A stretch of 64,000 nucleotides of DNA. It comes from Rhodospirillaceae bacterium (GTDB taxonomy: Bacteria; Pseudomonadota; Alphaproteobacteria; Rhodospirillales; UBA2165). The stretch lies in NCBI GenBank assembly GCA_947467145.1, contig CANIGJ010000008.1, positions 1 through 64,000 on the forward strand, in the 5' to 3' direction. Both the position numbers and the translations under genes were made by a program. The notes beneath the pieces were generated by a model, which did no database searches, had not been told where the DNA came from, and saw only the letters and a list, made by a program, of their open reading frames with translations. Shown one piece after another: positions 5,109 to 54,158 of this stretch; the first letter of the stretch is position 1, and each line of letters opens with the position of its first letter.

Positions 5109-7796
5109 ATGAACGCCAAACTTCAACCGCAGACAGATTGCTGTTCGACCGGGTTGCCCGCAAAGCATTCCTGCTGCACCCCGTCATCAAGCGATAGCAA
5201 CGATAACAAGTCACATAGTTCGCCGGACCATCACGGCCATGCGCATGGTCATCATATGCCGGCCAACGATTCACATGTCCAAAGTGTTGCTAAGGCAACG
5301 GACCCAGTCTGCGGCATGTTGGTCGATCCAAACACTGCGAAGCACAAGACGACGCACGACGGACAGACCTATTTCTTTTGCTGCGCCGGCTGCAAATCCA
5401 AATTCGAGGTCAATCCGGGACAATACATCAAGGCATCCGCCCCCGCCGCATCAATGAGCCATGACCATCACGGCCATCATCACGATCATCATGACGAGAA
5501 GGCGGCTGATCAGGTAAAAGACCCAGTGTGCGGAATGTCAGTTGATCCCCATACCGCGAAGCACCGATCCGAATATCATGGTCATCCCCACTACTTCTGC
5601 TCGGCGGGATGCAAAACCAAGTTCGATGCCGATCCCCAGAAGTATCTCGGCGAGAAGCCCGCTGCGCAGGAGCCGGTTCCGGAGGGCACGATCTATACCT
5701 GCCCGATGCACCCGGAGGTTCGCCAAGAAGGTCCGGGTTCTTGCCCGCTCTGCGGCATGGCGTTGGAGCCACTTCTGGTTACAGCCGAAGCCGGCCCTAA
5801 CCATGAATTGATCGACATGACCCGTCGCTTTTGGACTGGCGTCGCACTGGCGGTGCCGGTCGTCATTCTTGAAATGGGTGGACACCTCTTCAACCTGCAT
5901 CACTACATCGATCCTCAAGTGTCGCTCTGGCTTCAACTGGCCTTTGCGACTCCAGCTGTCCTTTGGTGCGGCTGGCCGTTCTTCACACGCGGCTGGGATT
6001 CTCTCCGGACGCGCAACCTGAACATGTTCACGCTTATCGCTATTGGTACTGGCGTGGCGTGGACGTACAGCATCGTCGCCACGCTCGCTCCCTCACTCTT
6101 TCCAGATGCTTTCCGAGACACAGATGGCACGGTCGGCGTCTATTTTGAGGCCGCCGCCGTCATCACGGTCTTGGTGCTATTGGGGCAAGTCCTGGAACTT
6201 CGGGCACGCGAACAGACTTCCGGAGCGATCCGCGCACTTCTGAATCTCGCGCCGAAGATGGCTCGACGCATCAAGGCAGATGGCACGGAGGAAGAGATCG
6301 AGCTTGAACACGTCGGGGTCGGCGATCACCTGCGTGTACGTCCAGGTGAGAAAATCCCGGTGGATGGATCTATTTTAGACGGTCGGTCGTCCGTGGACGA
6401 ATCCATGGTCACGGGTGAATCGATGCCCGTCTCCAAGGATAGCGGCGAAGCCGTTATTGGCGGCACGATCAATCAGACCGGCGCATTGATCATCCAAGCC
6501 GAGAAGATCGGCAGCGAGACCATGCTGGCCCGTATCGTCCAAATGGTTGCTGAAGCACAACGCAGCCGTGCGCCGATCCAGCGGCTTGCCGACAAGGTTT
6601 CTGCCTGGTTCGTCCCTCTCGTGATGCTGATCGCCGTTGCAGCCTTCTTCGGCTGGACGTTCTTTGGTCCAGAGCCTGCCATCGCCCACGGCCTTGTGGC
6701 TGCCGTCACTGTTCTGATCATCGCCTGTCCATGTGCGCTCGGACTTGCCACCCCCATGTCGATCATGGTCGGCGTCGGTCGCGGCGCTCAAATGGGTGTG
6801 TTGATCAAGAATGCTGAAGCTCTTGAACGACTTGAAAAGGTGGACACCCTTGTTGTCGATAAGACGGGCACGTTGACCGAAGGAAAGCCATCGGTCACGC
6901 AGGTTACCGCGTCGTTCGGCTTCATCGAGGATGACGTTTTGGCTTTCGCCGCTGCGGTCGAACGGTCGAGCGAGCACCCTTTGGCTCGAGCGATTGTCGC
7001 TGCGGCTGACGCGAAGGGGCTTCCCTCGCACAAGGTGTCTGACTTCGACGCCCCGACCGGAAAAGGTGTCCACGGAACCGTCGATGGCAAAAAGGTCGCC
7101 CTCGGTACTGCGAAGTTCCTCGCCGAAAGTGGGATTGACGTGACGGCCCTATCCGCGTCCGCTGATGCCGCTCGGCGTGAAGGAGCCACAGCGATCTTCG
7201 TAGGCGTCGACGGTAAGGTCGCCGGTATGTTCGCCATCGCCGATGCGATTAAGGCCACAACGCCTGACGCCCTGCGCGCCCTCCAGGCCGAAGGCATCCA
7301 CATTGTCATGCTCACGGGTGATAACCGTGTGACGGCCGAGGCGGTCGCGAAGCGTCTCGGCATCCAGGAGGTTGAAGCGGAGGTCCTTCCCGATCAGAAG
7401 AGCAAAGTTGTCGAAGCTCTCAAGCGGAAGGGTAAGGTCGTCGCCATGGCTGGCGACGGTGTAAATGATGCACCGGCCCTCGCTGCGGCAGATGTCGGTA
7501 TTGCCATGGGTTCGGGAACGGACGTCGCGATGGAAACCGCTGGCGTCACGCTTCTTCGCGGCGACCTTATGGGTATCGTTCATGCCCGCAAGCTGTCGAA
7601 GGCGACCATGGGCAATATTCGCCAGAACCTCTTCTTCGCGTTTTTCTACAATGCAGGCGGTGTTCCGCTGGCGGCAGGTCTTCTCTATCCTGCCTTCGGC
7701 ATCCTGCTGTCCCCCGTGGTGGCGGCGGCGGCGATGGCACTCTCGTCGGTTAGCGTGATCGGCAACGCGCTTCGCCTACGCATCAAAACGCTATGA
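5109..7796 (+). CDS. copA: copper-translocating P-type ATPase with two YHS domains
   Basis: Predicted 895-residue P1B ATPase that exports copper across the inner membrane. The N terminus is elaborate: Cys- and His-rich tail ([13 protein letters not shown], then HHGHAHGHH), a YHS domain at about 65-108 (DPVCGM, CCAGCK), a His-rich linker, a second YHS domain at about 138-180 (DPVCGM, CSAGCK), then a heavy-metal-binding motif at 196-222 ([19 protein letters not shown]). The core has the TGES loop, the membrane CPC (540-542), the phosphorylated Asp584 in DKTGT, and the [10 protein letters not shown] hinge. AAGGAG lies six bases before the ATG. It is divergent from csoR. Confidence 0.95.
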
Positions 7797-7803
7797 CTAT
7801 CTC

Positions 7804-7838
7804 GAGGCGGCTCACCTAGTGGGCCGCCTCCTCTTCTA
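7804..7838 (+). terminator. terminator after the copper ATPase gene
   Basis: An 8-bp stem (gaggcggc at 7804-7811, gccgcctc at 7823-7830) with an 11-base loop, followed by a pyrimidine-rich tail (ctcttct). It begins eight bases after the stop codon. From here to 8084 I see no convincing gene. Confidence 0.65.
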
Positions 7839-8084
7839 TAATGGTTGCGCAGATACCTCCGGCTTTGAAGCGTCGCGCGTCATGAATCTACTTAGAGGCA
7901 GGTTCACACTGCCGATCGGCTTAGCATACCCGCAATGCATACGAGCGCGGTTCAAGTCGTGCGACCGAGAACGTACCTATATCGGTAGATCATGTGCTTC
8001 TGGCCGCGCGACAGCACACTGGTCGATAACCTTCACAGACGAGAATAGCCGGCGACACCCGGCGTTGATGGAATATCTGTGGCG

Positions 8085-8444
8085 TTAATGGTGCTGCTCG
8101 TGGTCTTCGGAGTTATCACTCTCAGGGGTTTTCTTTTCGGTGCCCGGTTGATCGCCTTTGCTCATGGATTTCATATCGGCCATCATTTTTGTCATTTGGG
8201 TATGCATAGTTTGCATGTCCGTCATCATCTGGCTCGTTGGACAGTTTTTGTCGTTAGTCATGCAGCCCTCCATCGTCTGATGCATACCACCCATCCGCTT
8301 CTCCATTTCGGCCATGTGACTATTCATGCCGCGCATCATTTCGATGCGGGGCGTTGGGGGCGCTTTACTTTCTTGAGCAGCCGCAATGTGTGCCGATGAA
8401 AAAATACCAGCTACTGCGAGGGCGCCGATAATTGCTTTGTGCAC
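8085..8444 (-). CDS. Met/His-rich exported protein
   Basis: Predicted 119-residue periplasmic protein, starting at a GTG (8444) that has AGGAG seven bases upstream; an in-frame ATG at 8474 lacks this. A signal peptide (HKAIIGALAVAGIFSSAHIAAA) is followed by a mature part dominated by Met (for example MMRGMNSHMAEMEKRMGGMH and MMTDMQTMHTQMTKMMADM) and a His-rich end (DHEQHH). Such methionine runs are soft-metal ligands, and the position in the copper block fits copper buffering. No named domain is recognised. It is probably helical. Confidence 0.78.
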   Translation of the reverse strand: MHKAIIGALAVAGIFSSAHIAAAQESKAPPTPRIEMMRGMNSHMAEMEKRMGGMHQTMEGCMTNDKNCPTSQMMTDMQTMHTQMTKMMADMKSMSKGDQPGTEKKTPESDNSEDHEQHH

Positions 8445-9022
8445 GGTCGTTCTCCTATGCGTAATAACGCTCATTGTTGTCGCTACAAAAAGCGGTACTG
8501 CGCATGGCGCCTACCGTTTTATCGTACTTAGATAGGAGCATGAGGAATCTGTTCGCGTCATGCGCAGAGGTTTTACTGACTGCATCCATTTAAAGCTTGG
8601 ATACCGCTTTAACCTTGATCTGGATCAACCCCACCAAGTATCAAGGGGCACACGCGAAACAGTATTTTCAACTGCTCTTTCATCTTTCCGACGCGCGTTA
8701 TTTAGACAACGAGACTTAGTTCCCTAAGCGGAGACGCCTACTCTTCTGCATGGATTTCATCGTGCGGTTGGTCTTCGCTACACCGTCGAATGACTCGATC
8801 TCTAGAAACAACGCGTCATTCCGCAATTATTCAGATTTCGTGAAATTGCTGCTGGTCGCGCTCGTCATCGTGCCATTACCGCCAAGCCCGCATTTCCTCC
8901 GTCATCCATGCGAATGGCGGTCTATTGGCCCTCCTTGTTCCGACTGTACTGTCGATCTTCAAGCCGCGCGGCGTGACGAGATACGGAATGGCGGAAGCTA
9001 CACCGCGGGGGTTAAGCGACGG
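8445..9022. other. 578-base region with no convincing gene
   Basis: I see no well-supported coding region here. The region holds the ribosome binding site of the Met/His-rich gene at its left end and an FNR/FixK-type palindrome at 8615-8628. A forward open frame from 8750 continues across the CusF-like gene and lacks any recognisable domain; it may include decayed sequence. Confidence 0.5.
8615..8628. promoter_or_regulatory. FNR/FixK/CRP-family binding site
   Basis: TTGATCTGGATCAA is an exact match to the TTGAT-N4-ATCAA consensus of FNR, Anr and FixK regulators. Its centre is about 177 bases upstream of the GTG start of the Met/His-rich gene; if it activates from -41.5 on the reverse strand, transcription would start near 8580. 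No forward gene with a start nearby is convincing. Confidence 0.55.
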
Positions 9023-9346
9023 TCAGTGATGGTGGTCGTCGTGTTCTTCGTCAGACTTCTCGATGTGGACGATCTGAACGACCTTTCCATTTCTAGTCGC
9101 CTCGAATGCAACGAAATCCCCGAGCGCTATTCCTTTGAGCAGGCCAAAATCTTCCAGGTGAAAAACCGTCGATTTTGCCGGAAGGTCGAACGTTTCAAGG
9201 GGACCGTGGTGAAGGGTGATTTCCCTTCTGCCTTCGTTAATGTTCATTAATTTTCCGAGGGCACTTTCTTGTGCCGAAACTGACGGCCCGAAGGCACTAA
9301 ACAGCGCCGCAACACAAATCACGCATCCGATTCGCCGTAACCACAT
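9023..9346 (-). CDS. CusF-like copper-binding protein
   Basis: Predicted 107-residue exported protein with a signal peptide (WLRRIGCVICVAALFSAFG) and a CusF-type domain: GKLMNINEGRREITLHHGPLE, FDLPAKSTVFHL, LLKGIALGDFVAFEA. The C terminus is His-rich (EEHDDHHH). Compared with the cusF-like gene at 287-610 the Met pair is replaced by other residues, so metal preference may differ. The start at 9346 has GGAG eight bases upstream; Met codons at 9373 and 9352 are alternatives. It is the last gene of the copper block before tRNA-Pro. Confidence 0.8.
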   Translation of the reverse strand: MWLRRIGCVICVAALFSAFGPSVSAQESALGKLMNINEGRREITLHHGPLETFDLPAKSTVFHLEDFGLLKGIALGDFVAFEATRNGKVVQIVHIEKSDEEHDDHHH

Positions 9347-10124: not shown

Positions 10125-10466
10125 TCAGGAATTAGAGCCGGACGTACCAGAATTAGACGAGCTGGAACCCGGTGTCGGCTCGCTGATGCGGCTTTTCAGG
10201 ACCTGGGACGGGCGGAACACCAGCACGCGGCGCGGCAGGATGGGGACCTCTTCGCCGGTCTTGGGATTGCGGCCCACCCGCTGGCCCTTATTACGGACCG
10301 AAAAGCTGCCGAAGGACGAAATCTTGACCGTTTCGCCGTGCGCCAGGGTCTCGGAAATTTTGTTCAGGACCGCTTCGAGCAGGTCCGCCGACTCGTTGCG
10401 CGACAGGCCGACCTCTTGATACACGGCCTCGCTCAACTGCGATCGGGTGATCGTTTCTCCCGCCAT
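10125..10466 (-). CDS. ihfA: integration host factor subunit alpha
   Basis: Predicted 113-residue nucleoid protein that pairs with IHF-beta, binds DNA specifically and bends it sharply. The family core is visible: [56 protein letters not shown] and the [13 protein letters not shown] end, with the Pro of the DNA-intercalating arm in GRNPKTG. The start at 10466 is preceded by GGGGGA; a longer frame to 10508 is unlikely. The C-terminal tail is Ser/Gly-rich and longer than in E. coli. A consensus IHF site lies in the psp promoter at 41305. Confidence 0.95.
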
Positions 10467-10634
10467 TTCGACATTCCCCCCAACCAGCAATCTCGTTGCG
10501 GGAGTCATTCTAGGCGTGAAAACAATTTATCTCAATGGGATAACAGCATTCGCTCATGCAATCATTTACATGAGGTCCGCAAGCTAAGGCATTGATTAGA
10601 CTCAAGACGCTCGCCCGGTGGGCGCGCGTCCGTT

Positions 10635-11624
10635 TTACCAGCGCGCGAGCGCCGCACCCCAGGTCAGTCCGCCGCCCATGGCTTCCATGAGGATCAGATC
10701 GCCCTCCTGGATACGGCCGTCGCGCACCGCGGTATCGAGCGCCAGCGGGATCGAGGCGGCCGAGGTATTGGCGTGCTTGTCGACCGTGAGGACGATCTTG
10801 CTCTCGTCCATGCCGAGCTTCTTGCGGGTACCGTCGATGATGCGCTTGTTGGCCTGATGCGGGACCAGCCAGTCGATGTCCTTGGCCTCGAGACCATTGG
10901 CGCTGAGCGCCTCGCCCACGATCGACGACAGGTTGGTCACGGCGTGTTTGAAGACGTCCTTGCCTTCCATCTTGATCACCCCGGCATCGCCGGTCGAGGA
11001 CGGCCCACCGTCGCAATAGAGGATATCGCGCAAGGTGCCGTCGGAATGGATATGGGTCGAGAGGATACCCCGGCGCTGGTTCCAGCGCGGCTCGTTCTCG
11101 GAAATGCCGTTTTCGGCCCTGAGCACCACCGCCCCGGCCCCGTCGCCGAACAGCACGCAGGTGCCCCGGTCTTCCCAATCGACAATGCGCGACATGGTCT
11201 CGGCACCGATCACCAGGGCCGTTTTGGCCTGGCCAGCCTTGATCATGGCATCGACCACGGACAACGAATAGACGAAGCCCGAGCAGACGGCCTGCAAATC
11301 GAACGCCGCGCCCCGCGTCATGCCCAACTGGGCCTGCAGCTTCACCGCGGTCGCCGGGAAGGTATCGTCGGGCGTCGTGGTGCCGACGACGATCAGATCG
11401 ATATCGCTGGCCTTCACCCCGGCATAGTCCATCGCCTTAAGCGCGGCTTCGCGCGCCAGATCGGACGTCATCTGCCCTTCGGCGGCGATATGGCGCTGCT
11501 TGATGCCGGTGCGCTCGGTGATCCACTCGTCGGAGGTATCGACCAATTCGGCCAGCTGATCGTTGGTCAGCACCTTCTCCGGCAGGTAGGACCCCGATCC
11601 CACCAGTCGCGAATAATACGCCAT
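10635..11624 (-). CDS. fabH: 3-oxoacyl-ACP synthase III
   Basis: Predicted 329-residue condensing enzyme that starts fatty acid synthesis by joining acetyl-CoA to malonyl-ACP. The catalytic triad is visible: Cys in AVCSGF, His in VPHQANKRI and Asn in [10 protein letters not shown]. Length is normal for the family. It lies 11 bases downstream of plsX on the same strand, the conserved plsX-fabH pair, with ihfA downstream after a 168-base gap. Confidence 0.97.
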
Positions 11625-53105: not shown

Positions 53106-53210
53106 ATGATTAAGGTCACCGACACCATCAGTCTCAACGAGAACGAGATCGAAGAGGATTTCATCCGCTCGCCCGGACCAGGCGGACAGCATGTCAACAC
53201 GTGTTGTTAA
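53106..53210 (+). pseudogene. arfB: truncated 5' copy of arfB
   Basis: Thirty-four codons that match the first 31 codons of the intact arfB at 53736 (25 of 31 residues the same), up to and including GPGGQHVN, then three foreign codons (Thr-Cys-Cys) and TAA. Its GC-rich codon use fits the host, as does the body of the downstream gene, so this is most likely the original start of the host gene, cut off by the insertion that begins at about 53200. Confidence 0.85.
53187..53199. repeat. left copy of the 13-bp junction repeat
   Basis: cagcatgtcaaca, coding for the QHVN residues of the GGQ loop, is repeated exactly at 53817-53829. The two copies bound a 630-base segment and are the likely crossover sequence. 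Confidence 0.8.
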
Positions 53211-53258
53211 TTTTGCGGTACTTTTGTAGCTACTAAAATCAGATGGGGGGACATTTAC

Positions 53259-53717
53259 GTGGAACAGCTTGATATTGAAAAATTGTCCACCGCGATTTCG
53301 GGACATATGAGCTTCCTAAACACCAACGCACGCGATTACCTGGCAGCTCTGCATCCAGGGCAAAATATTGCGCCGATCTTCGTGTCAGAATTGCCACTTC
53401 TGTATACAGCGACCTTCGTAAACTCGGTAATGCGCACATTAGAAATAGGAAACGATTTCGATCTATTTATATCTCTGGTAACACGCTCACTTATCGCGAC
53501 GTTTAATATACCCAACCAAGATGCGCTTGAATTAGCGGGTAAAGCTGCTGAGCTTGCCTACGCTTCAATGAATGCCCCCGCACGATCCGTAGAAAATATA
53601 GTTGCACGCGCAGCTAGACGACACGCGGCCGCAATTCATCCAACTGACGTCAAAGAAGAATACCTCGACGTATACGCGTTGATTATGCTTTCGATTCAAA
53701 CGAACGGGCCTAAATAG
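53259..53717 (+). CDS. unknown protein carried by the arfB insertion
   Basis: Predicted 152-residue soluble, probably all-helical protein starting at a GTG with GGGGGG eight bases upstream. Segments include LSTAISGHMSFLNTNARDYL, TATFVNSVMRTLEIGNDFDLFISLVTRSL and ALELAGKAAELAYASMNAPARSVENIVARAARRHAAA. I recognise no family and see no integrase or nuclease motif. Codon use is AT-richer than the flanks. It is the only gene of the inserted segment, 18 bases before the rebuilt arfB. Confidence 0.65.
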   Translation: MEQLDIEKLSTAISGHMSFLNTNARDYLAALHPGQNIAPIFVSELPLLYTATFVNSVMRTLEIGNDFDLFISLVTRSLIATFNIPNQDALELAGKAAELAYASMNAPARSVENIVARAARRHAAAIHPTDVKEEYLDVYALIMLSIQTNGPK

Positions 53718-53735
53718 CGAATCGGAAGGCACTGA

Positions 53736-54158
53736 ATGATCCGCGTAACTGACTCTATCGCCCTGAACGATGATGAAATTGAAGAAAATTTCATCCGTTC
53801 CCCTGGTCCAGGCGGTCAGCATGTCAACAAGACCGAAAGCGCCGTGCAGTTGCGGTTCAACGCGCGCCGCAGCAAAGCGCTCTCCAATGCGATCTATCTG
53901 CGCCTCGTGCCGCTCGCCGGCAGCCGTCTCACCAAGGACGGGGTCATGGTGATCACCGCCAATCAGTACCGCGAGCGTGAGCGCAACCGCGAGGATGCGC
54001 TGGGCCGCCTGATCGATCTGATCCGCGCGGCGGCCGTCCCACCCAAGCACCGCCGCGCCACCAAACCGACCAAGGGTTCCAAGGAACGCCGGCTGGACGG
54101 TAAACAGAAGCGCGGCGAGACCAAGAAAGGCCGTGGCCGCCCAGGGCTCGGCGATTAA
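53736..54158 (+). CDS. arfB: alternative ribosome-rescue factor ArfB (rebuilt gene)
   Basis: Predicted 140-residue peptidyl-tRNA hydrolase of stalled ribosomes. The catalytic loop FIRSPGPGGQHVNKTESAVQLRFN and the basic C-terminal tail (KPTKGSKERRLDGKQKRGETKKGRGRPG) that enters the mRNA channel are both intact. GGAAGG lies six bases before the ATG. Codons 1-31 have AT-richer codon use than the rest (for example gat gat gaa att gaa gaa), and the switch to GC-rich codons comes right after GGQHVN. The first 31 codons seem to have come with the inserted segment. Confidence 0.92.
   Translation: MIRVTDSIALNDDEIEENFIRSPGPGGQHVNKTESAVQLRFNARRSKALSNAIYLRLVPLAGSRLTKDGVMVITANQYRERERNREDALGRLIDLIRAAAVPPKHRRATKPTKGSKERRLDGKQKRGETKKGRGRPGLGD
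53817..53829. repeat. right copy of the 13-bp junction repeat
   Basis: Exact repeat of 53187-53199, located inside the intact arfB at the QHVN codons, where codon use changes from AT-rich to GC-rich. Confidence 0.8.

Follow-up and report, generated by a model that had tools for sequence, protein, structure and literature searches.

The arfB locus in the window

The window analysed here, a stretch of 64,000 nucleotides of a Rhodospirillaceae genome (GenBank assembly GCA_947467145.1, contig CANIGJ010000008.1), carries two starts of arfB, the gene of a protein described as an alternative ribosome-rescue factor (PMC4814080). The first is an orphan; the second opens a complete gene. The locus is composed as follows.

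53106-53198, plus strand: orphan arfB 5' end of 31 codons, probably native; putative left half of the attachment site
53193-53198, plus strand: GTCAAC, the putative crossover core, with the central AA at 53196-53197
53199-53220, plus strand: putative left arm of an element, sharing 17 of 22 bases with the arm of the only other genome of the genus (G001), cargoes differing
53259-53717, plus strand: cargo gene of 152 codons, GTG start, AT-rich
53724-53729, plus strand: GGAAGG, a candidate ribosome-binding site 6 bases ahead of the arfB ATG
53736-53828, plus strand: arfB 5' end, 31 codons, presumably supplied by the element; AT-rich third positions, GC3 0.48
53829-54158, plus strand: arfB 3' part with host-like codon use, the right half of the original gene

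The orphan translates as MIKVTDTISLNENEIEEDFIRSPGPGGQHVN and, as the initial annotation had stated, soon runs through ACG TGT TGT into a TAA (53208-53210). Its likeness to the start of the complete gene was also recovered (74% identity across 94 bases, the two starts lying 630 bases apart; by eye, 25 of 31 residues agree), as was the shared 13-mer CAGCATGTCAACA at 53187-53199 and 53817-53829. The distance of 630 bases given for the inserted unit holds from start to start; the gap proper, 53199-53735, measures only 537 bases. The complete arfB, 53736-54158, encodes 140 residues that match Pfam RF-1 (PF00472, E 1.2e-21, residues 7-133), and by eye the protein has the GGQ motif and the Lys/Arg-rich end of RF-1-type peptidyl-tRNA hydrolases. 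The window's genome (G000) contains a single arfB 3' part.

Where along the complete gene does codon use change? A single change point falls after codon 29 (support 25-35), where GC3 rises from 0.43 to 0.83, and its strength was matched in 0 of 2000 shuffles. The reported switch in codon use is therefore real, and the foreign-looking portion ends about where the orphan ends. The 3' part has a GC3 of 0.82, against 0.78 for the adjoining desaturase gene. Around the cargo gene GC is 0.44-0.47 in the inner 300-base segments and 0.57-0.68 well outside. That the rebuilt gene received a new 5' end is supported, a foreign origin of that end being argued from codon use.

The cargo gene (GC3 0.44) gives few clues to its function. 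Its 152-residue product has no match in Pfam, NCBIfam, PADLOC or PHROGs, its single-sequence model is all-helical at low confidence (mean pLDDT 63), and that model matches nothing in the PDB at E<=0.001. Homologues next to other arfB genes, which had been expected, did not turn up: a search of genome contigs gave none, and the 317 genomes of the order contain no credible relative, two weak matches (E 0.003 and 0.007) being treated as chance. Neither a recombinase nor a right arm was detected within 53199-53735 by the list of open reading frames and a Pfam profile search. The one cargo protein lacks a recombinase match in four libraries, tyrosine integrases included, and the only Recombinase-domain match of the window genome lies away from arfB (contig C19). 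A scan of the insert for promoters and terminators returned one of each, the same as in shuffles.

The same break in related genomes

The whole-protein search covered 100 genomes, the window's own and 99 relatives. Both genomes of the window genus have an orphan start before a full arfB. In G001 the break is the same, the cargo is different (an M23 peptidase and a 143-residue protein without matches) and the two starts lie 1.9 kb apart. The orphans of the two genomes are 80% identical, much as two close neighbour genes are (80% and 82%), and this agrees with a native start in each genome. For longer flanking blocks the identity lies between 74% and 89%. The complete arfB copy of G001 (L033 4749-5171) has an AT-rich tail past codon 123.

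The 31-residue arfB start was then used as a query against f22, the family that contains Magnetospirillum; 49 of its 55 genomes matched. The gene is broken at the same codons in 8 of the 55, and eight orphan starts occur in seven of them (two consecutive ones in G078; one each in G181, G183, G184, G196, G200 and G202). Start-to-start spacings are 166 (three times), 491, 606, 777, 916 (including one added unmatched first codon) and 1193 bases. The cargo consists of lipoprotein-like proteins, judged by eye, in G078 and G202 and of a metallophosphoesterase in G184; a tRNA/Rfam scan of the G181 region found nothing. These family-wide counts are based largely on metagenome-assembled and draft genomes, and with thresholds of E 1e-4, 1e-5 and 2e-5 decayed or arfB-distant orphans would escape.

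Outside f22, 68 genomes with at least two matches were rechecked together with three from f22 (13 such genomes of genus g62 were left out); 70 of the 71 matched, and no contig held two starts. In G151 a second match lies on another contig, in an open frame of 104 residues. The 3' part of arfB was matched in 242 of the 317 genomes of the order at E<=1e-8, twice in five of them: close together in G196 and G197, on another contig in G183, and in G010 and G013, whose second matches were set aside because of fragmented contigs and as a judged paralogue, respectively.

The points at which the orphans leave arfB are nearly uniform. Nine of ten left junctions exit at or just past the GTCAAC core, the tenth (G202) about 12 bases later. 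Seven of the eight in f22 read GTCAA[CTG], 12 bases, [TC]CATAGCTAG; the G184 junction carries substitutions and reads CATAGCGAG. The left arm is the same at all eight f22 junctions, one of them decayed and one, that of G202, arfB-like in its first half. The roughly 12 arfB-like bases after the G202 core count against the explanation that we favour below. An insertion at the GGQ codons, as first proposed for the window, is supported, and so is its recurrence before differing cargo. The same break in G001, in G196 (two contigs) and in G197 (one contig), the latter two near-closed, means that it is not a local assembly artefact.

Uninterrupted sites, which the initial annotation had named as support for an insertion, exist in syntenic relatives within f22; in the window genus none was found, its two known genomes both being occupied. 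By shared neighbour genes, the uninterrupted site of G182 corresponds to the broken ones of G181 and G184, and those of G188 and G193 to that of G200; G090, also uninterrupted, has only the upstream genes in common with G183. Between G181 and G182 the orphan is 97%, the 3' part of the full gene 91% and the replaced start 95% identical. At 95% to an uninterrupted relative, the replaced start of G181 does not look foreign, which speaks against our preferred explanation. The sequence upstream of the carried arfB resembles, by eye, that of several uninterrupted arfB genes and so is no mark of an element.

Larger inserts in G196, G197 and G183

The most complete arrangement was found in G196. Its native arfB lies in halves 4.7 kb apart (L113 8444-8536 and 13267-13599), with both junctions surviving on a single contig. 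The insert between them begins with the left arm, followed by a second, complete arfB (8610-9029) and a further 4.2 kb to the end of a recombinase gene. It also includes a fragment that resembles residues 1-450 of a restriction-modification protein and a protein with weak helix-turn-helix matches. Of the recombinase, which is of the large serine type, the C-terminal part is present (PF13408, E 8e-11; PHROG 95 integrase, E 1.7e-15) and the catalytic N-terminus is missing; its stop codon sits within an inverted right arm, which is fused directly to the native arfB 3' half. Among the arfB loci, G196 alone has a serine recombinase at the attachment site. No arfB locus examined has an intact integrase, a point against our preferred explanation. 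The carried arfB of G196 has a change point of its own after codon 66, where GC3 goes from 0.66 to 0.92, so that this copy may itself be a chimaera.

The remnant in G197, contained in one contig, is the mirror image: a complete arfB, nucleotidyltransferase and HEPN genes, an inverted arm and an orphan 3' half. The gene pair (L167 5085-5880) is MntA/HEPN-like. One contig of G183 carries a native-like 5' orphan (84% identical to G090), followed by the left arm, a complete arfB and another 3.3 kb; a second contig opens with a piece of an arfB 3' part whose identity to this complete arfB is 71%. The end of the arfB contig (L168 9840-9938, minus strand) gives a weak Recombinase match (E 1.2e-4) resembling a serine-recombinase C-terminus.

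The two arms of G196 are inverted repeats at 19 of 22 positions, a value reached by none of the 37,956 other 22-mers of the fetched locus (maximum 15), and the right arm of G197 agrees with the left arm of G196 at 18 of 22. The attP half-sites of A118-type integrases are given as 25 bp long and pseudo-palindromic (PMC3783163), and arms of about 25 bases with this property occur in f22, in G196 and likewise in the right arm of G197. The attP-like palindrome deduced from G196 centres on CAAC, which also stands in the window core. The 15-mer of the f22 left arm, searched with up to two mismatches in the 55 genomes, gained fewer matches than its reversed control, and for this reason only near-exact arm matches were used; the right arm of G196 was found in this way. 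The window/G001 arm shares 6 to 8 of 22 bases with the two f22 right arms (7 and 8 for the window's own arm), and an exact search for the window-type arm in seven genomes returned only its two known places.

The integrase fragment of G196 has relatives (46-48%) in two other genomes of the 317, neither in arfB. They lie at L169 (G188:C17) 6749-8584 and L170 (G193:C1) 10158-11609 in a gene which, from its motif, we take to be comM/yifB-like. In both genomes that gene breaks off at identical codons (GAHNLL), and a motif search within the fetched stretches did not find the rest of it.

The f22 sequences show a break that recurs at one codon, arms in inverted pairs and, within a split native gene, a complete arfB. 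Taken together with the recombinase C-terminus at one right arm and the uninterrupted sites of syntenic relatives, these features identify the f22 breaks as probable remnants of serine-integrase elements.

Is the carried arfB protected from the integrase that cuts the native gene? A complete arfB behind the cargo-free 166-bp left end reads CAG AAT GTA/GTG AAT in all three cases (G078, G196 and G183), and the G001 complete gene has, separately, CAG CAT GTA AAT. GTC is present in all ten orphan starts. GTC AAC is kept in the full genes of the window, G202, G200, G181 and G184. Among the 22 other f22 arfB genes fetched, GTC is absent from codon 30 in three (G175, G159 and G177). The comparison of 3/3 with 3/22 gives 0.0087, for a codon picked after looking and with G078 and G196 closely related in this gene (96% identity in the 5' end). 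In G183 simple AT bias is disfavoured, since the remaining third positions of its copy are rich in GC. An attack-and-rescue scheme, in which the carried arfB would be synonymously recoded at the integrase core (GTC AAC to GTA/GTG AAT) and so unattackable, is an idea that we put forward tentatively and regard as rather doubtful. A recoded core also occurs in G175 (L114 11168) and G159 (L215 2814), with no orphan start or left arm detected in the fetched stretch; possibly these two genes are old replacements.

The candidate element and its known counterparts

We consider it probable, by a fair distance short of certain, that the window insert is the remnant of an element of the large-serine-integrase type that targets arfB at the codons after GGQ and supplies an arfB of its own. 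Such an element would recombine, most likely through a large serine integrase, at GTC-AA-C, and the native gene would be parted into two orphans, one 5' (attL) and one 3' (attR). It would bring its own arfB, complete in the best-preserved cases, and so provide a working ribosome-rescue gene. The carried arfB could then recombine with a native half, an event that would trim the element, on the right in most cases and on the left in G197. With the integrase end lost, what remained would be a chimaeric arfB preceded by a 5' orphan, the left arm and a few cargo genes. Given the structure of G196 and G197, the window looks like the leftover of something bigger. By analogy we infer that its insert is of the same kind as those of f22, that the integrase acted at the AA and that the right end has since been lost. 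Three points weigh against this membership: the arm is different, no right junction of its type was found and neither of the two genomes of the genus offers an empty site. In addition, a random homologous crossover is unlikely to land on the core, as that of the window seems to have done, and this counts against the explanation.

Two attP-like patterns had no match in viral contigs, a further point against the explanation, and the 25 viral-contig matches to the f22 left-arm pattern were dismissed by eye as chance, with no arfB codons ahead of them. At 45 arfB-like viral loci, tblastn gave no match to the G188 serine integrase, the similarity to arfB being partial or distant. An arfB-like match was given by 2 phage and 66 plasmid records, in each over at least 80% of the query.

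Could the small units be mobile in their own right? They would then be moved by an integrase acting in trans, their attachment site would lie between the left arm and the arfB 5' end, and each insertion would rebuild arfB exactly at the core and leave the site reusable. The change point of the window at the core agrees with this, as do the unchanged GTC AAC in the full genes of 5/5 cargo-bearing units (G001 and the first unit of G078 excluded), the two stacked units of G078, the cargo-free 166-bp unit of three genomes and the fact that 12 of the 14 genomes scanned, among them G000 and G001, have serine-integrase domains at other places. Yet in G196 and G197 the right arm repeats the left arm in inverted orientation rather than being an arfB start; the arfB start as right arm of an integron-like cassette was demoted to a rival once these arms had been found. 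In G196, and apparently in G183, the 166-bp unit forms the left end of a larger element; units were found neither free nor at another site, and G181, which is occupied, has no serine-integrase domain match in a genome that is 79% complete. We therefore regard independent mobility of the units as unlikely. The self-standing 630-base mobile unit of the initial annotation is not supported, the native arfB of G196 being split around a larger element with a complete arfB, and the window arrangement is no isolated 630-bp invention. CIMEs and integron cassettes are recombinase-less units with att-like ends that are sometimes stacked. They differ from the present case in that the ends are serine-integrase-like in the window's relatives.

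A core-exact chimaera and the G078 stack would also be accounted for if a second element entered the carried arfB and an excision from the second left to the first right end followed. This route requires a carried arfB with an unchanged core, whereas the copies that follow the cargo-free left end of G196, G183 and G078 are changed; no intermediate was seen, and we hold editing in two steps to be quite improbable. Least credible of all is an old tandem duplication of arfB, or a transformation with an illegitimate end in the GGQ stretch, without any site-specific recombinase: GGQ is highly conserved, homology-assisted joining is plausible and the window insert lacks a recombinase, but the f22 arm stands before unrelated cargo at 8/8 left junctions, its inverted form at both right junctions, and relatives have uninterrupted sites, the G001-shared arm being the one such argument for the window itself.

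If the preferred explanation holds, the integrating elements that repair the damage they do have a further target, a ribosome-rescue factor struck in its catalytic codons, and what is carried here seems to be an entire spare gene, not merely a gene end. A spare copy presumably pays. Remnants of every form (left, right, both and stacked), together with uninterrupted sites, trace a decay into orphan gene starts, which annotation might mistake for frameshifts or for duplications. Should the carried copies indeed be recoded for protection, the system would be a parallel in nature to engineered gene drives with their recoded rescue, and would offer integrase/core pairs aimed at a highly conserved site.

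Among best-matching titles and abstract starts, the best 3 to 15 of up to 451 papers each time, there was no report of arfB/yaeJ as an integration site, of Magnetospirillum serine recombinases at arfB or of elements with an intact or recoded spare gene copy; with most subscription papers falling outside, this is weak evidence of absence. The main text of one integrase paper, PMC12884075, mentions neither arfB nor yaeJ.

How does the arfB locus compare with known systems? In the window the arfB 5' end is replaced, to judge by codon use, and a remnant 5' end is left, as with gene-restoring islands of the SXT/dusA type. The islands associated with dusA use tyrosine integrases. In f22, unlike systems with a tyrosine integrase of the SXT/dusA type, the sole recombinase next to an arm belongs to the serine class. 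Islands at dusA resemble the arfB locus in entering a conserved gene near its 5' end, replacing that end and leaving a remnant; they differ in target, and 48 kb were deleted with one of them (PMC4482086). The sections of PMC4482086 on which this comparison draws mention no complete second gene copy. ICEs of the SXT/R391 type likewise target the 5' end of a translation-termination gene, prfC (PMC2791158), but they are conjugative, use a tyrosine recombinase and do not enter arfB. CP4-57 and other ssrA (tmRNA) elements also place mobile DNA at a ribosome-rescue gene (PMC10107115), differing in that they use the 3' end of an RNA gene and a P4-type integrase. Prophages and islands with large serine integrases (phiC31, A118 and Bxb1 type) are alike in having a Zn-ribbon recombinase at one of their ends and inverted arms, some 24 bases long, around a central dinucleotide. 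From these the arfB elements are set apart by their target, the GGQ codons of arfB, by the complete arfB that they carry and by an integrase seen in truncated form.
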